Positions 23,143-34,627 of a stretch of 47,657 bases of DNA are shown piece by piece. Position 1 is the stretch's first letter. The number at the start of each line of letters is the position of its first letter. The translations under genes and the position numbers were made by a program. Source of the stretch: an uncultured Methanosarcinales archaeon (GTDB lineage: Archaea; Halobacteriota; Methanosarcinia; Methanotrichales; Methanotrichaceae); the NCBI GenBank assembly GCA_903871465.1, contig CAIQHB010000070.1, positions 1 through 47,657 of the forward strand. The letters run 5' to 3'. The notes under the pieces are model-generated. The model was given only the letters and a program-made list of their open reading frames with translations, ran no database searches and had not been told where the DNA came from.

Positions 23143-23174
23143 GTAAGCCCTTATGTTTAACTAGCGTGATATGT

Positions 23175-24095
23175 ATGGCGGGAAAAATGATCAAGATATC
23201 CTTGCTGCTCCTGGCACTTGTTGTTTTTTGCAGCAGTGCATATGCAGCGGAGGGCGAACGGCTCAAGCTGGCGACTACTACCAGTCTACATGATACCGGA
23301 CTCCTTGATCTGATCAAGGAGAAGTTCGATGCCAAGTACAACGTTTCCCTGGATGTCGTATCCGGAGGAACCGGCATTGCCATCCAGTACGGAGAGCGCG
23401 GCGACGTTGACGTCCTCATAGTCCATGACAAAGTGAGGGAGATGAAGTTCATAGCTGATGGGCAAGGGCTGGAGAGAAGATGCATTGCCTATAACTACTT
23501 CTACATAGTCGGCCCGAAAGATGATCCCGCAGGGGTCAAGGGTATGAACGCCACTCAGGCATTTACGACCATCATGGCCAAGGGAAAAGCCGATTCCTCT
23601 AAGGTGAAGTTCGTCTCCCGGGGCGACAACTCCGGTACCCAAGCCCGTGAGATACTGATCTGGAAGAAGGCCGGTTTCAACTACACTCTCGTCAACAACT
23701 CCGGGCCCTGGTATATCGATGCCGGACAGGGCATGGGCGCCACGCTGAACATTGCCAATGAGATGCAGGCCTATACTTTGAGCGACATGTCCACCTTCAT
23801 GGCCTACCAGGGCAATCTGAGTCTGGTTTCCCTGATCGGAGGCGGAAACGATCTCTTGAACGTTTACGTGGCCATGGCCGTGAACCCGAAGAAGCATCCC
23901 AATGTGAACTGTGTTCTGGCTAACGAGTTCATCAATTATCTGGTTTCCAATGAGGGCCAGGATCTGATAGCCGGTTATGGTAAGGATAAATACGGCAAGT
24001 CGCTCTTCTCCGCTGCCAGGGGCAACTGCACCCTCATCGGCTGCTCAGATGGAGAGTGTGCGTCACCCACAAACGCCTCCTGTGCGACGGCATAG
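23175..24095 (+). CDS. tupA: Tungstate-binding protein, ABC transporter
   Basis: The protein has a signal peptide (KISLLLLALVVFCSSAYA) and then the TupA hallmark LATTTSLHDTGLLDL, VVSGGTGIAIQYGERGDVD and FVSRGDNSGTQ, which bind the oxyanion. The distinction from molybdate-binding ModA/WtpA rests on the TTTS-DTGLLD motif. The C-terminus, CTLIGCSDGECASPTNASC, is unusual in carrying four Cys residues. Starts at 23166 (GTG), 23175 or 23187 are possible; I prefer ATG 23175. First gene of tupABC on the plus strand. Tungsten is needed for formylmethanofuran dehydrogenase and aldehyde oxidoreductases. Confidence 0.9.
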   Translation: MAGKMIKISLLLLALVVFCSSAYAAEGERLKLATTTSLHDTGLLDLIKEKFDAKYNVSLDVVSGGTGIAIQYGERGDVDVLIVHDKVREMKFIADGQGLERRCIAYNYFYIVGPKDDPAGVKGMNATQAFTTIMAKGKADSSKVKFVSRGDNSGTQAREILIWKKAGFNYTLVNNSGPWYIDAGQGMGATLNIANEMQAYTLSDMSTFMAYQGNLSLVSLIGGGNDLLNVYVAMAVNPKKHPNVNCVLANEFINYLVSNEGQDLIAGYGKDKYGKSLFSAARGNCTLIGCSDGECASPTNASCATA

Positions 24096-24151
24096 ACTGA
24101 AAGTGGACCGAAAGTAGACAGAAAGGCAAAAATCGTTAGTGGTGAATTTGG

Positions 24152-24844
24152 TTGGAAGAGATCTGGAATGGACTTATCAGGGCCGCCATGCTGATTGCGG
24201 CCCTCAATCCCCAGGTGGTGGAGATCACCACCAGGTCTCTTTTCATCTCTTTGTCGTCTGCCTTTTTCGCAGCCGTCATCTGCATTCCTCTGGGGGGCTT
24301 CATCGAGTTTCGCCGCTTTTGGGGCAAAGGAACGCTCATAAACGCGATTCATACCCTTTACAGCCTGCCAACGGTGACTGTTGGCCTGATGGTCTTTCTG
24401 CTCATCTCACGATCTGGGCCTCTGGGCAGTCTGGGCCTGCTCTTCAGCCCGGCGGGAATGATACTGGGCCAGACCATTCTCGTCAGCCCCATCATGACCG
24501 GCCTTGCCATCACCGCCCTGGCAGCCGTCAGCCCGCAGATCAGGGACACGGCGAAATCGTTAGGCGCAACAGAGATGCAGATAATAATAACCGTGATAAA
24601 AGAGGCCCGTTCCGGGGTTATGGCGGCAGTGATTCTGGGGTTTGGCAGAGCACTATCGGAAGTGGGCGTGGCCATGATGATCGGCGGGAATATTCGGGGC
24701 TACACGCGCGTGCTCACCACGTCCATAGCTCTTGAGACCTCCATGGGGAACCTGGAGCTATCCATGGCCCTGGGAATTATCCTCATATCCATCTCGCTGG
24801 TGATCAATCTCCTGCTGAACAGGATTCGAGGGAGATGGATTTGA
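24152..24844 (+). CDS. tupB: Tungstate ABC transporter permease
   Basis: The 230-residue integral membrane protein has about five to six helices and the permease EAA-type loop TAKSLGATEMQIIITVIKEA near residue 140, where it contacts the ATPase. It starts at TTG 24152 (MEEIWNGLIRAAML), with a GGTGA five bases upstream. The 3' end overlaps tupC by 10 bp. The sequence SLSSAFFAAVICIPLGGFIE and the central PTVTVGLMVFLLIS helix are typical of TupB. Complete. Confidence 0.9.
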   Translation: MEEIWNGLIRAAMLIAALNPQVVEITTRSLFISLSSAFFAAVICIPLGGFIEFRRFWGKGTLINAIHTLYSLPTVTVGLMVFLLISRSGPLGSLGLLFSPAGMILGQTILVSPIMTGLAITALAAVSPQIRDTAKSLGATEMQIIITVIKEARSGVMAAVILGFGRALSEVGVAMMIGGNIRGYTRVLTTSIALETSMGNLELSMALGIILISISLVINLLLNRIRGRWI

Positions 24845-25620
24845 CCCGTGGACCGGCTGGAGGACCGGCTGATGGATCAGCTGATGGATTCGCTGACGTG
24901 CGGGCATTTTTAGAGATAAAGGAGCTGGGCAAGAGCTATGGTCACGCGGAGATTCTGAAGGGGATCAACCTGACGATCGAGCAAGGCTCCGTCCTGGCTC
25001 TCATCGGCCCCACTGGGTCCGGGAAGACGACTCTGCTGCGACTGGTGAACCTGCTGGAGAGCCCGAGCTCTGGGCAGATCATATTCAAAGGCCAGAAGGT
25101 CTCAGACCGTTCGGAGAGAGAGATGCTTATGGCACGTCGCAGCATGGCCATGGTCTTTCAAAAACCGGTCATGTTCAAGGCAAGAGTGCAGGAGAACATC
25201 TCCTTTGGCCTGAAGATGCGGAGAATGGATGATCGGGAAAAAGTGCGGGAGGCTTTGTCGGCTGTGGGGCTCGCCGGGTACGAGAACCGGGATGCCGGCA
25301 CGCTCTCGGGAGGAGAGATGCAGAGGATAGCTCTGGCGAGGGCTCTCGTCCTGGAGCCGGAGCTGCTGCTTCTGGACGAGCCGACCGCCAACCTGGACCC
25401 GAAGAGCGCGGCTGCGATAGACCGGCTCCTGCAGGGGCTGGCAGGACAAAAAACGACAGTGATCCTGGCCACGCACAACATGCGGGAGGCCTTGAAATTG
25501 GCAAGCATCGTGGCAGTGCTGCAGGCGGGCAGGCTGACGGCCGTAGGGAGTCCGGAGGCGGTCTTCGGGTCCGGCGGCCTGGTGGACCCACTCGCATGCG
25601 GAATTTCCGCGCCATGGTGA
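24835..25620 (+). CDS. tupC: Tungstate ABC transporter ATPase
   Basis: The 261-residue ATPase has Walker A GPTGSGKT at 58-65, Q-loop MVFQKPVMF, signature LSGGEMQRIALARAL, Walker B LLLLDEPTANLD and H-loop LATHN. It begins with an overlap of 10 bp into tupB. The first 24 residues (MDLTRGPAGGPADGSADGFA) are low-complexity, encoded by a short DNA near-repeat, so the true start may lie near residue 27 (LEIKELGKSYG); no in-frame ATG supports that. A hairpin repeat follows 15 bp after the stop. Confidence 0.9.
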   Translation: MDLTRGPAGGPADGSADGFADVRAFLEIKELGKSYGHAEILKGINLTIEQGSVLALIGPTGSGKTTLLRLVNLLESPSSGQIIFKGQKVSDRSEREMLMARRSMAMVFQKPVMFKARVQENISFGLKMRRMDDREKVREALSAVGLAGYENRDAGTLSGGEMQRIALARALVLEPELLLLDEPTANLDPKSAAAIDRLLQGLAGQKTTVILATHNMREALKLASIVAVLQAGRLTAVGSPEAVFGSGGLVDPLACGISAPW

Positions 25621-25634
25621 TGATCGATTGATGC

Positions 25635-25860
25635 GGCTTTTCGCCCTTTCTAATTGCTGAGCTCAGTTAACTATGGTTTTCCTGTTGTTAGTTAGTCGCT
25701 CTGTGCGTTCTTTGTGAACTCTGTGCCTCTGTGGTTGAAACCTCGTTGGCCACTGGTTAGGACAAATGATTTACGAACTACCACCACAGAGACACAGAGC
25801 GCACGGAGGACTCACAGAGGATTCTATTATTCTATCATCCACTCGGTACAGCGAGGAACC
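25635..25860. repeat. ~225-bp hairpin element, left copy
   Basis: It matches 27086-27309 along its whole length from GGCTTTTCGC to GCGAGGAACC, in the same orientation. Inside are two arms, about 25697-25737 (CTCTGTGCGTTCTTTGTG onward) and 25780-25821 (ACCACCACAGAGACACAGAG onward), that are imperfect reverse complements and would fold into a long hairpin. It has no coding capacity. It lies between tupC and tfx. Confidence 0.88.
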
Positions 25861-25906
25861 ATGAATGCTTTTATCTTCTTATACATCTTCTGAATCCAGC
25901 GATAAG

Positions 25907-26362
25907 ATGATGCCCGAAAGTGCCGAAGACGAAGCAAAGGTCGAGGAATCCCCGGATTCCTTCCTCACGGCGAGACAGCTGGAGGTGTTGCAGCTGCGCC
26001 AGCAGGGCAGCTCCCAGCAGGATGTGGCGGACAGGCTCGGCACCACGCGCTCCAATATCAGCATCCTGGAGAAGCGAGCCCACCAGAATATCGCCCGGGC
26101 GGAGCGCACGCTCCAGCAGTGGATGATGATTCGTGCTCCTATCACATGCCGGGCGAAAGCGGGGACGGACGTCTTCGATCTGCCCAGGATGATCTTTGCG
26201 TCTGCGGATGAGAAGGGAATGCGCCTGCCGGTTACCTCCCTGGACATCGTGGTACAGCTGCGGCGGAGAGCGCCCCGGCTCTTCAAGAAGCGGTCTCTGG
26301 AGCAGGATGCCGAGATCTATGTGACTGAGGAGGGGGAGGTGATGGTGGAGGGAATGGGGTGA
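25907..26362 (+). CDS. tfx: Tfx-family DNA-binding transcription regulator
   Basis: From Met at 25907 (MMPESAEDE) the protein carries FLTARQLEVLQLRQQGSSQQ, then DVADRLGTTRSNISILEKRA, a LuxR/sigma-like helix-turn-helix at residues 20-60, and then the Tfx C-terminal domain with AGTDVFDLPRMIF and LRLPVTSLDIVVQLRR-like sequence (here MRLPVTSLDIVVQLRRRA). Tfx was first described as binding DNA downstream of the fmdECB promoter in a Methanothermobacter. Its place directly after tupABC suggests a link to molybdate/tungstate supply. It is separated from tupC by a repeat element, so it has its own promoter. Confidence 0.86.
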   Translation: MMPESAEDEAKVEESPDSFLTARQLEVLQLRQQGSSQQDVADRLGTTRSNISILEKRAHQNIARAERTLQQWMMIRAPITCRAKAGTDVFDLPRMIFASADEKGMRLPVTSLDIVVQLRRRAPRLFKKRSLEQDAEIYVTEEGEVMVEGMG

Positions 26363-26480
26363 TGGGAGGAATTTCTATTTTGTAGCCAGGTGAATTCTTC
26401 ACTATAGCATTTTCCACATACATTCACACCTTCGCCGCCAAGGAAAACCTATTTCTCTCTTCCAATCCATCCCACCAATC

Positions 26481-27062
26481 GTGATCAGAATTCCGGTTTC
26501 CCGAATCCTAATTCTCGTCCTTCTTCTCCTGCTCATCACCTCAAGCCTAGCCTCCGCCTACGGCCGCAGCGTGGAAGATCTGGTGGGCGCCTTCTCCATT
26601 GAGAAAACCATAAAGATCGGCAGCAGCAGCCAGGGCTTCACCACCGCTGGCGACGTTGATCCCCTGAGCCCGCCCCAAAGCATGGCATCCGGCCCTCTGG
26701 CAGACGACCAGGCCCCCAGCCTGGCAGGCTTCGCCTTTGAGCCGCAAAAGGTATCGGCCAACTCGACCCAGCCCATTAACCTTACCCTACATGCCATTGA
26801 CGACCAGGCAGTCTGGGCGGCAGAGGCCAGATTCACCGGCCCGGCTGGAGAGGAAGCGGTGGCGCTCTTCCCGGCCCAGAACCTCACCTCTGGATCTGCC
26901 CAGGATGGTGTCTACAGTGCCAGGATGATGCTGCCTGCGAACGAGACGGGAGACTGGCATCTGCAGAGCCTGATCCTGGTGGACAGAGAGGGCAACCGCA
27001 GAACTCTGGGGCAGAGCGACCTGATGCGACTGGGGCTGCCTACACGGATATCGGTAGTTTAG
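26481..27062 (+). CDS. Small secreted protein with YGRSVEDL segment after the signal peptide
   Basis: Starts at GTG 26481. A strong signal peptide (ILILVLLLLLITSSLASA) is followed at once by YGRSVEDLVGAFSIEKTI, nearly the segment found near the C-terminus of the protein at 14497. The remaining ~140 residues form a beta-sandwich-like domain (GFAFEPQKVSANSTQPINLT, then GVYSARMMLPANETGDWHLQ), resembling an Ig-like or fibronectin-like domain with potential N-glycosylation sites. Function unknown; probably in the cell envelope. It lies between the two copies of the hairpin element. Confidence 0.75.
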   Translation: MIRIPVSRILILVLLLLLITSSLASAYGRSVEDLVGAFSIEKTIKIGSSSQGFTTAGDVDPLSPPQSMASGPLADDQAPSLAGFAFEPQKVSANSTQPINLTLHAIDDQAVWAAEARFTGPAGEEAVALFPAQNLTSGSAQDGVYSARMMLPANETGDWHLQSLILVDREGNRRTLGQSDLMRLGLPTRISVV

Positions 27063-27085
27063 GGCTGCACCTGGGAAAAGAAGAA

Positions 27086-27309
27086 GGCTTTTCGCTACTC
27101 CTAATGACTAACTCAGGTTACTATGGCTTTCCAATTGTTCGTTACGCCCTCTGTGCGTTCTTTGTGAGCTCTGTGTCTCTGTGGTTGAACGTCGTTAGCA
27201 ACTGGTTTTAACCAAATAGTTACGAACTAACACCACAGAGACACAGAGCGCACGGAGGACTCACAAAGGACTCGATTATTCTATTATCCGATCGATACAG
27301 CGAGGAACC
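27086..27309. repeat. ~225-bp hairpin element, right copy
   Basis: Direct repeat of 25635-25860 with several substitutions and small length changes. The arms are at about 27147-27187 and 27230-27270. It follows the stop of the secreted protein by 24 bp, just as the left copy follows tupC by 15 bp. The two copies bracket tfx and the secreted-protein gene. Confidence 0.88.
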
Positions 27310-27328
27310 AAGAAAGGAAAACGCATGT

Positions 27329-27766
27329 CTATTCGCCCATAATCTGCACCACAACCTTCCGTTGCCGTGGCCTGTTATCCAACTCCAGGAAAACGATTTG
27401 TTGCCAGGTTCCCAGCATCAAGCGCCCTTCACAAAAGGGCACAGTGAGGCTGGGCCCCAGGAGCGAAGCGCGAATATGCGAGTGGCCGTTGCCGTCATGC
27501 CACCGCTCGTTGTGGGCGTAATCGATCTCAACTGGTGCGATCCTCTGCAGTGCATCACCCAGATCCGCCACCAGCCCGTCCTCATACTCGATGGTGGTGA
27601 CGGATGCCGTTGCTCCCGTCACAAAGACCGTGACCACTCCTGCTTTCAATGATGTTTTCTCCAGCGCCTCCTGCACTTCATCGGTTATATCCAATACTTC
27701 TCCGCTATGCGTCTCAAACTCCAGGTATCTGGTCGCTATCAAGAGATCAGCTCCAATCAGCTCCAA
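27329..27766 (-). CDS. YjbQ/UPF0047 family protein
   Basis: The 145-residue protein is full length. It shows VFVTGATASVTTIEYEDGL, then AHNERWHDGNGHSHIRASLL, GPSLTVPFCEGRLMLGTWQ and a C-terminal MGE. These are the conserved blocks of the YjbQ family, trimeric beta-fold proteins; some bacterial members have weak thiamin-phosphate synthase activity, but the physiological role is unsettled. It converges on the secreted gene at 26481 through the right hairpin copy. Start ATG 27766; MELIGADLLIATRYLEF. Confidence 0.88.
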   Translation of the reverse strand: MELIGADLLIATRYLEFETHSGEVLDITDEVQEALEKTSLKAGVVTVFVTGATASVTTIEYEDGLVADLGDALQRIAPVEIDYAHNERWHDGNGHSHIRASLLGPSLTVPFCEGRLMLGTWQQIVFLELDNRPRQRKVVVQIMGE

Positions 27767-27812
27767 TCAGCACTAAGAAATTATTTATCGCTCCCCGATG
27801 TATCTAAACCTG

Positions 27813-28712
27813 ATGGCCTACTACGATGCGGTTCGGCGCATTCTGATCTATATATTTGTCCTGAACATAACCGTAGCCCTGCTCAAAGGGGTTTATGGCC
27901 TTCTTACCAACTCCCTGAGCATGAGCGCAGACGGGCTTCACTCTCTTTTCGATAGCACCTCCAACATCATCGGCCTGGTTGGCATCGCCATAGCCTCCCG
28001 CCCGCCTGACAGGGAGCATCCCTACGGCCACGCCAAGTTCGAGACCTTCGCCTCCATTGGCATCGCCGTCCTCCTCTTCGCTAGCTGCTTTCAACTGATA
28101 CTCGCCGCAGTCGGTCGCTTTCAAAATCCATCTGTTCCCGAGGTCACAGAGCTCTCCTTCGGCATCATGGGCTTGACTCTGGTTGTCAATATAGGCGTCT
28201 CGGCCTACGAGTATATCCTGGGCAAAAGGCTGAAGAGCAGCATCCTGGTGGCAGACTCCATGCACACCCGAAGCGACATTTATGCCTCGGTTGGTGTCAT
28301 CCTGGGTCTTATTGCCATCAAGATGGGCTACCCGCTCGCCGATCCGGTCATAGCCCTGCTCATCTGCGGTCTGATCATTCTGACGGGCATCGAGATCATA
28401 AAAGACAGCTCCAGCGTCCTGCTGGATAAGGCTCCGATCGAGGAGAGCGCAATATTCGATCTGGCAAAGTCCGTAGACGGGGTCTGCACCTGCCACCGTG
28501 TTCGGACGCGCGGTATGGCAGGAGAGATTTACGTGGATCTGCATATCGGAGTGGACTCGTCTCTATCCATCGAGGCGGCTCATAACGTGGCTGAAGACGT
28601 GGAGCACAAGATCAAGAGTAAAATTGTTGGGGTCAAGGATGTAGTCGTGCATCTGGAGCCCCAAGGCTTCTGCGAGATAAAAGCTCAAAAGGGATCAACC
28701 AGCCTGGTATGA
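27813..28712 (+). CDS. Cation diffusion facilitator (divalent metal efflux)
   Basis: The protein has six predicted helices and CDF metal-site motifs: SADGLHSLFDSTSN in helix 2 (D...H-x3-D) and DSMHTRSDIYAS in helix 5 (H-x3-D), followed by the cytoplasmic domain with GVCTCHRVRTRGMAGEIYVD and H-containing HIGVDSSLS. It exports Zn2+, Fe2+, Mn2+ or similar in exchange for protons. I start at ATG 27813 (MAYYDAVRRILIYIFVLN); an ATG five codons upstream is also possible. Full length, about 300 residues. Confidence 0.88.
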   Translation: MAYYDAVRRILIYIFVLNITVALLKGVYGLLTNSLSMSADGLHSLFDSTSNIIGLVGIAIASRPPDREHPYGHAKFETFASIGIAVLLFASCFQLILAAVGRFQNPSVPEVTELSFGIMGLTLVVNIGVSAYEYILGKRLKSSILVADSMHTRSDIYASVGVILGLIAIKMGYPLADPVIALLICGLIILTGIEIIKDSSSVLLDKAPIEESAIFDLAKSVDGVCTCHRVRTRGMAGEIYVDLHIGVDSSLSIEAAHNVAEDVEHKIKSKIVGVKDVVVHLEPQGFCEIKAQKGSTSLV

Positions 28713-28751: not shown

Positions 28752-28832
28752 ATGAGAATGGCGTTGAGCATGAGTTTGAGCAAGGAGATGATCATGAGGA
28801 TGATCCTGGAAATTAGCGCAGAGGAGGAGTAA
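28752..28832 (+). CDS. 26-residue Met-rich mini-gene coupled to the CHAT-like gene
   Basis: ATG 28752 opens MRMALSMSLSKEMIMRMILE followed by ISAEEE and TAA. The TAA overlaps the ATG of the next gene by one base (TAATG), and GAGGAGGAG before it serves as ribosome binding site for the downstream gene. The peptide would form an amphipathic helix with six Met. It may be a leader for translational coupling or a small protein in its own right; nothing but sequence supports it. Confidence 0.45.
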   Translation: MRMALSMSLSKEMIMRMILEISAEEE

Positions 28833-31800
28833 TGATGCAAAATATCACAATCGCTGTTTCTGAGGCGGGAAGCGCACAGACCAGGACCTTTGACTATAAA
28901 GTTACCCTTGACGGAGAAGTCGTATCTGAGAGAAGGCTCTCACCAGTCCAGACTTCACAGGTTCGGGAGATGGCAATGCAGTATCTCTCTCTTCTGCAGG
29001 GCGGCGGCAGCAACAGCAGCCCGGGCGCGAAAAGTTATCTGCCCATCCTTGGAGCCGGATTATTTCATCTCTTTCTGGAGTCCGGATGGCAGGAGTTTGG
29101 CTCGAAGATCCCGGCGGCTGACGTTGGGAGACTGATCGTCAATTCGTCAATCCCGGAGGTTCTGCAGCTGCCCTGGGAACAGCTCAGGCTCCCCGGCCGG
29201 GAGGAAATCCTTGGCGATAGCCCCGACTTTAGCCTCATTCGCCATCCCGATAGCGCGGAAAGTCTTTCTTCGTTCTCGCTGGAATTGTCTCCCGGTCCCT
29301 TGCGCGTGCTCTTCCTGGCCGTGGAAAGTGACTACGAACGCGAAGAAGGCGAGATGCTCAAAATGGCGGAGGGACTGGATTTGTCGCTGGAGATCTCCGA
29401 CTCCGGCACCCTGGAAGAGCTGAAGAGCCTGGCTGAGGCCTTCCGGCCTCACATCGTGCACCTGGTGGGCCAGGCGAGAATGTCCGGCGTTCAAGCCGGT
29501 TTTTCAATGCCGGGCATGGTCACCGGAGGCACGGGAAGCCGCTCTAATCTCTGCTCAGCAGAAGAGCTGGCAGAAGCCCTGAAGAACAGTGGGGCACAGT
29601 GCATAATACTGGGCGGCCGGCAGAGCGAGCCCGCATTTGCTCAGGGCCTCCTCTGTCAGACGCTGGCGGAGCATATCCCGATGAGTGTGGCCTGGAATGG
29701 CTCAACCGCATCTGCCTCCTCCTTCTATCGTTCTCTGGCGAAAGGCGAGTCTCTGGACACAGCTCTAAAAGCTGCGGCCATTGAGACCCGGAAGACAGGC
29801 CGGGAAGCGGGAGCGATTGCTGCCTTTCCCATCCTTTATGCGACATGTGATCAATCCAGAGATCGGTTGGGGCTATTCGACACCCAAAGAAATGAAAGCG
29901 TTGCCGCCACAGTCTGCAAAGAGCAGCTTGCACTGCCAGGCATGACAGAAGGATATGCGGAGTGCTTCGTGGACAGGAGACGGGATTTAGAGCGTTTCCT
30001 TCCTCTTCTGCTTGGCGGAACGGTGCACACTCTAATATTCACCGGCCCGAATGGCGTCGGCAAGAGCACTCTTGCGGTGCATCTCGCCCGCTCGCTTGCC
30101 TTCTCCGGCTACTCCATCCTGCCCATTTATGCCTCTTCCAATAATCCCATAAGCTCGCCCCGCCTTCTGGACGCGATCATAGGACAGACAACAGCCGGAA
30201 ATGGAGGAGATTTGATGAAGCTCAAAGATCCGAGTCTCTCAGTCAAGGAACGGCTGCAGATTTCAATCGACTTCTTGAAAGCCAATCGCATCCTGATGTT
30301 ATGGGACGGCCTGGATCTGGATGGCAAGACTGGCAAGATCGCAGACCCTGTTATTGCCGATTTCTATCGGCTATTGCTCAAGGACCTCGTCTCAGCTCGC
30401 GCTATCATCACCTGTAGCTCTCTTCCTGCCGAGGCTTCGATACTGCCCTCGAAATCACGTGAGTTGAAGATTGCTGGCCTTTCAGAGACGGCTTTCATGA
30501 GGTTCCTTCTCCAGGATGATCTGGTGGCAAATCGCTATCATAAAGGCGAGTTATCATATGCGGATCTTCAAGCGATACATTCCAGCTTCCTGAGAGATCC
30601 GGCAAATCTGTCCCGGATGCGCCGGGCTTTGAGGACAGAGTTATCTCCTGGCGTGGATGCCAGGGCAAAGCTTTGCGCAACTCTCGGCCCGGAGTCCCAT
30701 CAAGCCCTTTCCCGGGCGGCAGTCTACGAGACAGCCATGAGCCCCGCAGCATTTGCGGTCGTGGCAGAAGTCCCGGTCGAGACAGCCCTTGCCACTCTCT
30801 CTCTTTGGCAAAGCCTCTCCCTGGTTTATGAGGTGGGAAAGTTGTGGGCGGTGCCCTCTTCCGATCGAGCCGCATATCTGGCCGCCATAAGCACTGAAGA
30901 GCGTGGCATTGCGCAAAAATTGGCAGGAGATTTTCTGAAAAACCAGGCCGAAGCGGGCCGCTCTGCGGAGCTTTCCCTCTCCCGGCTGGACTGTCTATTG
31001 GAAGCACGGGGGCACTATCTTGCAGCATCGGATCTGGAAGATGCAAGGGTTATCACCGGACGTATCAGCGGCTATCTGGAGAAGCGCGGCTACTATTCCG
31101 AGATAATAAGACTGAACCGGGAGTTATTGGACTTGCAGCCGGATGCCGGGCCCTTGGGCTGGATCGCCAGGGTCTACGCGGACCAGGGCGATTACGGAAG
31201 GGCTCAAGAGTGGTACGAGCGTGCCATCAAGATTGCGCCTGTTGCTTCTGCCTATCTGGGTCTGGGCATGGCATACCTGTCCCTGAGAAAACTTGAACCG
31301 GCCGGAGTCAACCTGCAAAAGGCCGTGGATATCTACGTTTCCGAAAAAGACAGGGCGGGCGTTGCTGCCGGCCTGCTGGGATTGGCATCCATCGATATGG
31401 AGAAGAACGAAAACGATAGCGCGCATTTGAAACTGCAAAAGATTGCAGAGATCTCGGAGAGCCTGGGCGATCTGGCCGGCAGGGCCAGGGCATTGCAGGA
31501 AATGGCCAGGCTGGATATGATGCGGCGAGACTATGAGGCGGCACAGCCAACGCTTCTTGAATCTCTGCAGCTGATGCAGAGACTGGGCGACAGAACCGGG
31601 GAAGCCGTCGTCCTTTTCAATCTGGCCAGTCTCTTTCTGGAGAAGGGCGAAAATGCCCTTGCAGACCGGGAGTTCCAAAAAGCCCTGATGCTGGCGCGTG
31701 AGAATGGAGATCGTATAGGCGAAGCCGCTATCCTGCACAGCCTGGGTCTGATCAATTCAAATGCCGGGGACAGAGAGTTGGCCAGGGAGAATTTCGAGGA

Positions 31801-32104
31801 AGCTTTACGGATCTTTCAAGAGATTGCAGACAGATCCGGCGAAGCAGGAGCATTCTTCCAGCTTGGCGCTATAGCCTTGCAGCGGGACAAGATCCAGGAA
31901 GGACTTCGTCTGATGGCCCTTGCCGCCATAATCCTGAGAAGCATCAAGAGCGATGAGGTCAAGAACGTCGAGCCGCTGGTGGAGCGCCTGGCCTCACAGC
32001 TCGGCAACACACAAGAGCAGTTCATGACCATGGTGCAGGAGGTCTTGCAGAGTTACGTCAGAGATCGGGGTTGGGGGCTTGTGGAGAGGGCCTCAGGAAA
32101 ATAG
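28832..32104 (+). CDS. CHAT-like / STAND NTPase / TPR protein with a degenerate CHAT active site
   Basis: This 1090-residue protein has three parts. Residues ~100-335 have the CHAT fold order (SIPEVLQLPWEQLRLPG, RPHIVHLVGQA, CIILGGRQSE, SFYRSLAKGESLDTALKAA). Catalytic His (normally G-H-G) is Gln214, and the Cys of LNACxS is Arg263. Residues ~375-560 are a P-loop NTPase: Walker A GPNGVGKST at 405-413, Walker B ILMLWDGLD at 487-495, then a winged-helix-like arm. Residues ~750-1040 are at least seven TPRs (YGRAQEWYERAIKIAP). Such STAND proteins act as sensors in signalling or phage defence; here the protease half is probably non-catalytic. Start ATG 28832 is coupled to the mini-gene. Confidence 0.85.
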   Translation: MMQNITIAVSEAGSAQTRTFDYKVTLDGEVVSERRLSPVQTSQVREMAMQYLSLLQGGGSNSSPGAKSYLPILGAGLFHLFLESGWQEFGSKIPAADVGRLIVNSSIPEVLQLPWEQLRLPGREEILGDSPDFSLIRHPDSAESLSSFSLELSPGPLRVLFLAVESDYEREEGEMLKMAEGLDLSLEISDSGTLEELKSLAEAFRPHIVHLVGQARMSGVQAGFSMPGMVTGGTGSRSNLCSAEELAEALKNSGAQCIILGGRQSEPAFAQGLLCQTLAEHIPMSVAWNGSTASASSFYRSLAKGESLDTALKAAAIETRKTGREAGAIAAFPILYATCDQSRDRLGLFDTQRNESVAATVCKEQLALPGMTEGYAECFVDRRRDLERFLPLLLGGTVHTLIFTGPNGVGKSTLAVHLARSLAFSGYSILPIYASSNNPISSPRLLDAIIGQTTAGNGGDLMKLKDPSLSVKERLQISIDFLKANRILMLWDGLDLDGKTGKIADPVIADFYRLLLKDLVSARAIITCSSLPAEASILPSKSRELKIAGLSETAFMRFLLQDDLVANRYHKGELSYADLQAIHSSFLRDPANLSRMRRALRTELSPGVDARAKLCATLGPESHQALSRAAVYETAMSPAAFAVVAEVPVETALATLSLWQSLSLVYEVGKLWAVPSSDRAAYLAAISTEERGIAQKLAGDFLKNQAEAGRSAELSLSRLDCLLEARGHYLAASDLEDARVITGRISGYLEKRGYYSEIIRLNRELLDLQPDAGPLGWIARVYADQGDYGRAQEWYERAIKIAPVASAYLGLGMAYLSLRKLEPAGVNLQKAVDIYVSEKDRAGVAAGLLGLASIDMEKNENDSAHLKLQKIAEISESLGDLAGRARALQEMARLDMMRRDYEAAQPTLLESLQLMQRLGDRTGEAVVLFNLASLFLEKGENALADREFQKALMLARENGDRIGEAAILHSLGLINSNAGDRELARENFEEALRIFQEIADRSGEAGAFFQLGAIALQRDKIQEGLRLMALAAIILRSIKSDEVKNVEPLVERLASQLGNTQEQFMTMVQEVLQSYVRDRGWGLVERASGK

Positions 32105-32151: not shown

Positions 32152-32394
32152 ATGACCGATAACAAGAACATGATGCATAAATTCGCTGCGCTCTTGCTGG
32201 CGTTCATTGGCGTCGCCGCAATGATTTCCGCCTGGTTCATCCTGCTCACCACAGCCTCACACAATATGCGAATAGTCGCCCTGGAGATATTTGGGGTGGT
32301 TGTCACCACGGCAGGGTATTTCCTGTGGCAATACAGCCATAGAAACAAAACTCCGGCAATAAAAGAGGAACAAACTATAGATGAAGATGTTTAA
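32152..32394 (+). CDS. Small two-helix membrane protein
   Basis: From ATG 32152 the 80-residue protein MTDNKNMMHKFAALLLAF has two transmembrane helices (AALLLAFIGVAAMISAWFIL and IVALEIFGVVVTTAGYFLWQ) and a charged tail (YSHRNKTPAIKEEQTIDEDV). Its gene follows the STAND gene by 47 bp. It could be that protein's membrane partner or effector, but a TATA-like box between them and the lack of known homologs leave this open. It converges on glgP with 13 bp between stops. Confidence 0.62.
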   Translation: MTDNKNMMHKFAALLLAFIGVAAMISAWFILLTTASHNMRIVALEIFGVVVTTAGYFLWQYSHRNKTPAIKEEQTIDEDV

Positions 32395-32407
32395 ATATTA
32401 ACGTTGA

Positions 32408-34627
32408 TCAGATCCCTCCAAACGGGTTCTGCTTCAACTCACCACTTTCCTTCCTATAGTCAGCCTTCATAGCTGTCTCAAAGCCCTTACGGTAGAACTT
32501 TTCCGTGTACTCTTTGGCCATGCGGCGCGCGCTGAAATTAGGCCCCGACATCTTGATGGCCTCCTTCATCACCCGCACCCAACCATGAGAGACACCATCC
32601 TCGTCCACATCGTAGAAAAGGGATACAATCTCTTTCTCCAGCAGCTCATAGATTGCAGCGGCATCCTTTGCATCTCTATCCGGTCCTTCTTCTGCGCCGG
32701 AGACTGACCAGCCATTTCTTCCGTTGTAGCCTTCAATCCACCAGCCGTCGAGTATGGAAAGCTGTGGTACTCCGTTTAGCGAGGCCTTCATGCCGCTCGT
32801 TCCACTCGCCTCCATGGGCGGCAAGGGATTGTTCACCCACACATCCACACCGTGCACCATGTACTGAGCCAGCAGCTCATCATAGTCCTCGACGAATGCT
32901 ACTCTGCCGCCAAAAACCTGGTTCTTGGCGGCATTGAAGACCTGCTGCAAGAGCATCTTGCTCTGCTGGTCATCATGATGAGCCTTTCCTGCAAAGATGA
33001 TCTGTACCGGCCTCCAGGGGTTGTTCAGAATATTCTTGAGTCGATTCAAGTCCTGCAATAGAAGCGTGGGTCGTTTATACGAGGCGAAACGCCTGGCAAA
33101 TCCCAGGGTGAGGGTCGCAGGATCGAGCATAATTCCGGAAGCCATTACGATATTCGGATTCGGATCAGACCCCGCTTCCAGCCATTTGTTCCGAGCCCGT
33201 TCCCTAATCTTTTCGATGAGCATGCCCTTCATGGCATAATGGTGTCGCCATAGCTCGTCATCCGGTATCTCGTCGACCATCTCCCAGATGCGGCTCTGGT
33301 CATGCTCCTCCAGCCATGTCCTCCCAAGGTAACGTTTGAAGATCACATCGCCGAGACGCCGGTCAATCCAGGATGGCACGTGGACCCCGTTGGTTATGTA
33401 GTCGATGGGAACCTCTTCCAGAGATTGTCCAGGCCAGAGCTGCTGCCACATCTTTCGGCTGACCTCTCCATGCTTCTTGCTCACTGCATTGTGGTATTTG
33501 GAGGAGCGAAGGGCAAAAGCGGTCATGTTAAAGCCATCGGACCTGACCGGATTCTCCCCCTGGTGCAAGAACTCCTCTCTGGATAGATCCAATGTGGGCA
33601 GATAGGAACCGAAATACTTGTCCAGGAGCTGATGAGCAAAGACATCGTGGCCCGCTGGCACGGGAGTATGGGTGGTGAAGACGGTTGTGCCCTTGACCTG
33701 CTCGAAGGCGTCCCGATAATTCATTCCTTGCTCCACCTTCATCCTGATCCTCTCCAGAACGGCAAAAGCAGGATGACCTTCATTCAGGTGAAGGACGGAA
33801 AATTTCTCTCCCATGGCCTCTAAGATGCGGACGCCTCCTATCCCCAGGACGATCTCCTGGCGCAGACGTCTCTCCAGATCTCCCGTATAAAGCCGGTCGG
33901 AGATGACACGGTTCTCGGGCTCGTTGGCCTCGCTGGAGGTGTCGATTAAGTAGAGCCTGGTCTTTCCCACCTGAACCTTCCAGACCTCCAAATTAATGGG
34001 CGGGTCCATGATCGGCACTTTAATGGAAAATGGATCTCCATTCAAATCCGCCATCTTCTGAATGGGCGCATTCTCCCTGTCCAGGATTTCGCAGGCCCCC
34101 ACTTGCCAGCCGTCCGGCGAGATCATCTGGCGGAGGTAGCCTTGAGGATACATGAATCCCACTCCCACCAGCGGAATACCAAGATCGCTGCACTCTTTCA
34201 GGAAGTCTCCTGCCAGGAAGCCTAGCCCCCCCGCATAGAATGGAAGCGCGTGGTGCAAGCCGTATTCCGCTGAGAAATAGGCGACAGCGCATTTTTGTGG
34301 TTCAGTCACATTGGCGCAAAACCAGCCGCTGGTTGGGTTCATGTAGCCCTCAAACCGGGCCATAACAGAATCATAATGTCTCAGAAAGTGAGGATCTCTT
34401 GAGGCTGCCTCAAGTTTTCCTTTATCCATCTGGTTGAGCATCTTAATCGGGTTGTGGTTGCTCAGATACCAGCCTTGGCGGTTAAGCAGCTTAAATAGCT
34501 CCCTGCCTTCCGGATGCCAGCTCCACCAGAGATTGTAGGCCATCTCTCTTAGCCCGGAGATCCTTTCGGGCAGATCGGCAAGTTTGTCTTTGATGCCTTG
34601 CATAGTTAGTGTCAGCTCCGATATCAT
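32408..34627 (-). CDS. glgP: Alpha-glucan (glycogen/maltodextrin) phosphorylase
   Basis: The 739-residue GT35 enzyme is full length. Features are AEYGLHHALPFYAGGLGFLA, LHLNEGHPAFA, TTHTPVPAGHDVF, ITNGVHVPSWI, the FARRFASYKRP phosphate-binding stretch, and EASGTSGMKAS with PLP lysine Lys614. It cleaves alpha-1,4-glucans with phosphate to glucose 1-phosphate. In Methanothrix-type organisms glycogen is a reserve. The start MISELTLTMQGIKDKLADLP is supported by a TATA-like AAGCATATATC near 34645-34655 on the minus strand. Confidence 0.92.
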   Translation of the reverse strand: MISELTLTMQGIKDKLADLPERISGLREMAYNLWWSWHPEGRELFKLLNRQGWYLSNHNPIKMLNQMDKGKLEAASRDPHFLRHYDSVMARFEGYMNPTSGWFCANVTEPQKCAVAYFSAEYGLHHALPFYAGGLGFLAGDFLKECSDLGIPLVGVGFMYPQGYLRQMISPDGWQVGACEILDRENAPIQKMADLNGDPFSIKVPIMDPPINLEVWKVQVGKTRLYLIDTSSEANEPENRVISDRLYTGDLERRLRQEIVLGIGGVRILEAMGEKFSVLHLNEGHPAFAVLERIRMKVEQGMNYRDAFEQVKGTTVFTTHTPVPAGHDVFAHQLLDKYFGSYLPTLDLSREEFLHQGENPVRSDGFNMTAFALRSSKYHNAVSKKHGEVSRKMWQQLWPGQSLEEVPIDYITNGVHVPSWIDRRLGDVIFKRYLGRTWLEEHDQSRIWEMVDEIPDDELWRHHYAMKGMLIEKIRERARNKWLEAGSDPNPNIVMASGIMLDPATLTLGFARRFASYKRPTLLLQDLNRLKNILNNPWRPVQIIFAGKAHHDDQQSKMLLQQVFNAAKNQVFGGRVAFVEDYDELLAQYMVHGVDVWVNNPLPPMEASGTSGMKASLNGVPQLSILDGWWIEGYNGRNGWSVSGAEEGPDRDAKDAAAIYELLEKEIVSLFYDVDEDGVSHGWVRVMKEAIKMSGPNFSARRMAKEYTEKFYRKGFETAMKADYRKESGELKQNPFGGI

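Follow-up and report, generated by a model that had tools for sequence, protein, structure and literature searches.

The Methanotrichaceae maintain a protein in which a CHAT fold without its catalytic His-Cys dyad precedes a STAND NTPase and a TPR superhelix, and which is on balance probably a domesticated pseudoprotease: an ATP-gated switch that would present a non-catalytic CHAT surface for docking. The gene was found in a 47,657-nucleotide stretch of DNA (the window) from an uncultured Methanosarcinales archaeon of this family. Its ORF is a real gene of 1090 amino acids with at least 25 orthologues, the full-length ones sharing 40–58% identity with it in some 25 genomes, and 25 of the 26 genomes of the genus carry it at a mostly conserved locus. 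Among named genomes, orthologues were found in the methane-making Methanothrix/Methanosaeta and in Methanotrichaceae by an alignment-based scan, the query with the single protein having matched none. A literature search on pseudo-CHAT proteins and on CHAT in Methanothrix found no report. The positions of the gene, of its parts and of its neighbours are collected in Table 1.

Table 1. The dyad-less CHAT-STAND-TPR gene, its domains and motifs, and neighbouring genes (window positions)
Feature	Position	Strand	Basis
Exported DUF7743-like gene, conserved upstream neighbour	26481..27062	+	Neighbourhood comparison; weak Pfam match
YjbQ/UPF0047 gene, conserved upstream neighbour	27329..27766	-	Pfam and neighbourhood comparison
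Gene of a CDF metal-efflux transporter, immediately upstream and a candidate operon partner	27798..28712	+	Cation_efflux and ZT_dimer; TIGR01297, 243 bits; adjacent in 24 loci
Pseudo-CHAT / STAND NTPase / TPR gene	28832..32104	+	ORF; 25+ orthologues; mean pLDDT 88.7 in the full-length model
Residues 1-95, N-terminal beta/alpha part before the CHAT core, family-conserved	28832..29116	+	Alignments; DSSP of model
Residues 96-345, CHAT fold without catalytic dyad	29117..29866	+	PF12770; model pLDDT 90.2; Foldseek
Gln214 codon, catalytic His position	29471..29473	+	Alignment
Arg263 codon, catalytic Cys position	29618..29620	+	Alignment
Residues ~370-749, STAND switch: NBD, helical domain, winged helix, arm (boundaries approximate)	29939..31078	+	Foldseek 6mfv; motif conservation
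Walker A, residues 405-412, GPNGVGKS	30044..30067	+	Motif conservation
Walker B, residues 488-492, LMLWD	30293..30307	+	Motif conservation
Residues ~750-1045, TPR superhelix, predicted sensor	31079..31966	+	Pfam TPR; helical hairpins in model; LGN-type TPRs (Foldseek)
Small two-helix membrane gene, outside the system	32152..32394	+	Beside no other orthologue

The order CHAT-like domain, P-loop NTPase and TPRs, which a preliminary description had read from the letters, was borne out by Pfam, by the predicted structures and by Foldseek. The P-loop and the TPRs were clear by Pfam, and the CHAT profile PF12770 scored 23.1 bits on the full protein, below its cut-off of 24, and 27.2 bits on residues 1–365 alone, above it. 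The AlphaFold2 model of residues 1–365, made with 32 homologues, reached a pLDDT of 90.2 and matched Csx29 (E = 7e-9), SAVED-CHAT and separases at the top of its Foldseek results, which places the domain in the CHAT fold family and agrees with the suggestion that the fold is otherwise kept. The best Foldseek match of the full-length model was the STAND-TPR protein PH0952 (6mfv; TM 0.59 by target length). The P-loop, Walker B and sensor Arg of STAND NTPases are present, and the model shows the succession of NBD, HD, WHD and arm followed by a repeat sensor, as that architecture has been set out (PMC6468293).

The alignment places Gln214 in the column of the catalytic His and Arg263 in that of the catalytic Cys. 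In a profile alignment to the solved SAVED-CHAT structure 8tl0 these columns fall on its GHG and NACC motifs, and in the model residue 214 lies in the turn after strand 208–212 and residue 263 in the loop after strand 257–261, as expected for a CHAT dyad; the replacement of both protease residues was thus confirmed. The two positions were read in each homologue that was found, and the same is true of the whole orthologous clade, in which none of the 30 rows (28 core rows and the long-branch rows L034 and L036) has both His and Cys. The core rows carry Q (21), P (5), E (1) or L (1) at position 214, which is moderately slow-evolving, and R (12), C (10), G (3), Q (1), E (1) or W (1) at position 263, which evolves at an average rate. 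L034 has neither residue, and L036, whose alignment is uncertain, shows His but no Cys. Further catalytic-loop residues, among them the Lys of CQSGK, are also lost in the clade. By its missing dyad the domain does not belong to the CHAT cysteine proteases. The 27 other CHATs covering both positions in a 345-genome sample of the phylum all keep His and Cys, and because the dyad is lost throughout the clade while these keep it, an effect of chance or sequencing is excluded; the clade-wide pattern and the intact frames likewise rule out a pseudogene. A different His/Cys pair was sought in the alignment and the model and no conserved one was found: H207 and H210 precede or sit on strand 208–212, and C257 starts the next strand and is mostly Gly or another residue in the clade, being Cys in 10 of 28 rows. 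As to whether Gln214 and Arg263 are conserved across species, the loss of the dyad is shared by the clade and the replacing residues are not fixed. A fixed new function of these two residues themselves was partly rejected, given the moderate conservation of 214 and the lack of it at 263.

When the tree is rooted on outside CHATs, a single clade with 100/99 support unites the 30 positional orthologues of Methanotrichaceae, and every row of its sister clade keeps H and C (hereafter HC-type). Parsimony on the first tree counted two changes at the His position and four at the Cys position. Because the early branches of the dyad-less clade usually have the state Q/C, the His was lost first; the Cys, which persists in about one third of the rows, would by parsimony have been lost several times afterwards. 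The dyad-less gene stands directly upstream of thrC in genera g7, g8, g10, g11 and g2 and in one g1 genome, and in genus g9 an HC-type gene occupies the same spot (L093, L091; a fragment in L220). From this shared place upstream of thrC it follows that the two kinds of gene are positional orthologues and that one branch of the family gave rise to the dyad-less state. When loci truncated by a contig end were set aside, 22 of 25 dyad-less genes were unbroken single ORFs against 2 of 11 HC-type genes (Fisher 1e-4). Since most of the genomes are MAGs and there are fragments in the HC set, the difference is suggestive and falls short of proof. HC-type sister genes were broken or truncated in most Methanotrichaceae genomes (L083, L041, L087, L040, L093, L091, L220). 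Separately, two genomes carry TPR-only gene arrays whose products are related to the C-terminal part of the pseudo-CHAT protein (L045 in G028:C33 and L038 in G036:C104), the former standing upstream of thrC; they seem to have been left over or derived from the STAND gene.

The Walker motifs of the NTPase have hardly changed in the dyad-less clade. Both nucleotide-binding motifs of the window protein are intact, as had been described. In Walker A, every ungapped row has G405 and G410, and K411 is kept in 26 of 29 rows, Arg replacing it in three; D492 of Walker B is invariant in all 30 rows. R382 is invariant too, as is R523 wherever the alignment has no gap. The three orthologues with Arg in place of the Walker A Lys are L020, L022 and L036, where the change may weaken the NTPase.

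The CDF metal-exporter gene lies on the same strand directly upstream of the dyad-less gene in 24 loci including the window, with 9–149 bp between the match ends in the other 23. Of 50 family genomes, 24 have a CDF orthologue (E ≤ 1e-60), and each of these also has the dyad-less gene. Four further genomes (G004, G027, G031 and G034) have the dyad-less gene and no CDF orthologue, and so the exporter is not a universal partner. The YjbQ and DUF7743-like genes are conserved upstream too, and the CDF linkage may in part be inherited synteny. The downstream neighbours vary among loci. In several genera of the family a larger block is conserved, which in the window spans 23166–28712 and comprises an ABC transporter, a TFX regulator and the DUF7743-like, YjbQ and CDF genes.

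Homologues beyond the family fall on both sides of the loss. HC-type relatives occur in Methanophagales, in ANME-1 and in one Acetobacteraceae MAG, and the HC-type sister clade (L035, L089, L246 of Ca. Methanocrinis natronophilus, L253 of Methanophagales and L256 of Acetobacteraceae) has the same domain order as the window protein and is homologous to it over nearly the full length at ~33–37% identity, in some genera from the same place upstream of thrC; it differs in keeping GHG...GCQ/GCE with H and C, and most of its Methanotrichaceae copies are broken. In bacteria, six homologous CHAT-STAND-TPR proteins of Magnetococcales (L254, L257, L258, L275, L270, L273) are all without the Cys, the His being gone as well in five of them, and the first four are encoded directly upstream of a gene identified by sequence reading as 6-phosphofructokinase-like. 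The AU test of shared against separate loss in Magnetococcales and Methanotrichaceae gave p 0.257.

Parts of this organization are known from other systems. Csx29, the TPR-CHAT protein of type III-E CRISPR (7zoq), shares the CHAT fold and also has a non-catalytic domain used for contacts, its pseudo-caspase CHAT1 touching Cas7-11 beside the active CHAT2 (PMC10028731), but it has no STAND NTPase, keeps CHAT2 active and is CRISPR-associated. The STAND proteins with TPR sensors PH0952 and MalT (6mfv) have by fold the NTPase-WHD-arm-TPR switch core in common with the window protein, and PH0952 differs in its N-terminal putative ArsR-like DNA-binding effector, which stands in the place of the CHAT domain. 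The pseudo-orthocaspases known from cyanobacteria and other bacteria, with HC changed to YS, are likewise dyad-free caspase folds kept in lineages (PMC6426788). They differ in being p20 orthocaspases, with mainly Tyr/Ser replacements and no known STAND link; the window protein has a replaced dyad in a CHAT domain and does not belong among them. Membership in an anti-phage defence system was rejected, as PADLOC returned TPR-only and weak P-loop matches and the gene has a mostly conserved place in nearly all genomes of its genus.

Loss of the dyad could also mean that the CHAT domain is drifting under selection on the NTPase and TPRs alone, its N-terminal fold remaining as a passive structural cap. 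The site rates lean in that direction, with a CHAT median of 1.03 against 0.77 and 0.76 in the two slower parts, as do the many residues accepted at positions 214 and 263 and the retention of HC-clade invariant sites, which was 49% in CHAT against 60% in the NBD. The faster evolution fits a partial relaxation of the CHAT domain. A passive remnant is nevertheless rather unlikely, because the fold is confidently predicted, the frames are intact and S105, L111, W115, E116 and W288 of the CHAT core are invariant or nearly so. Moreover, 48 positions, of which CHAT holds 12, are conserved at 75% or more in the dyad-less clade and absent from the HC clade; they are spread over all domains, a pattern that speaks for new constraint and against mere decay. 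The kept fold, the remodelled catalytic loop and the newly fixed positions together go beyond decay and stop short of a fixed replacement at 214 and 263. It is very improbable that the domain is a cryptic enzyme that works with another set of residues and gives Gln or Arg a new role; the frequency of Gln at 214 would suit it, and other residues may retain some catalysis, but Pro in five rows, Leu or Glu in others and a variable 263 speak against it, as does the want of a conserved His/Cys pair elsewhere in the domain.

A decoy or dominant-negative role would have the protein tune those CHAT-STAND-TPR proteins of its cell that are catalytically intact, by co-assembling with them, in the manner of cFLIP for caspase-8 or TbMC4 for metacaspases. 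Pseudo-caspases acting with active relatives have precedents (PMC6426788), and the window's own genome (G000) encodes, on contigs C16 and C46, two long CHAT proteins whose dyads are intact. These align mainly over their TPRs, however, making mixed assembly doubtful, and the closest HC paralogue in that genome is a broken CHAT fragment on contig C35, so that the decoy appears quite improbable. The small membrane gene at 32152 had further been put forward as a candidate for a separate effector, which the pseudo-CHAT sensor would release, and the question was whether it always follows. It adjoins the pseudo-CHAT gene, in the same orientation, only in the window; at no other orthologue locus is it a neighbour, and its homologues in 13 other genomes of the genus lie on other contigs, two of the four checked standing next to the phosphorylase gene that is its neighbour in the window. 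This refutes it as a general mechanism and leaves the proposal scarcely credible. The gene belongs to the neighbourhood of the DUF3417 phosphorylase gene; a pairing of the two (DUF3417/glycogen phosphorylase; window 32152–34627, L198 and L199) was seen in several Methanothrix genomes. The suggestion that the lineage turned a protease into a binding module accordingly survives in the lineage-wide loss of protease chemistry with fold and NTPase kept, and not in the effector assigned to it.

For the domesticated switch that we favour, a cycle can be proposed by analogy to PH0952 and MalT, STAND-TPR proteins being autoinhibited and ADP-closed (PMC6468293). At rest, with ADP bound, the NTPase core would be kept shut by the TPR superhelix and the arm; binding of a ligand to the TPRs would open it, and ATP binding would drive assembly. 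The assembled CHAT domains, presumably devoid of protease activity, would then offer a partner a surface for docking or scaffolding, with no substrate being cleaved. As to that partner, our guess would be the CDF exporter, the best-linked candidate, or an intact CHAT protease elsewhere in the genome. In evolution, the catalytic His would have given way, mostly to Gln, close to the root of the Methanotrichaceae clade, and the Cys would have been lost several times later; the gene would since have stayed under selection on the chromosome in a stable place, mostly right behind the CDF gene.

CHAT-STAND proteins are usually read as death or defence effectors. A wider and still speculative possibility, to which we give rather little credence, is that non-catalytic CHAT-STAND-TPR proteins form a recurrent class of domesticated ATP-driven scaffolds that lost the dyad both in Methanotrichaceae and in Magnetococcales, whether in one event or separately, and that regulate core functions of adjacent genes (CDF metal export, threonine synthesis, phosphofructokinase) and not defence. 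In the Methanotrichaceae the whole machine has been kept with its ATP switch intact and its protease residues gone, which suggests that the assembly is worth keeping without proteolysis, and the positional orthologues with and without the dyad allow a direct test of this. The family is also a warning that a CHAT fold alone is no ground for annotating a protease.
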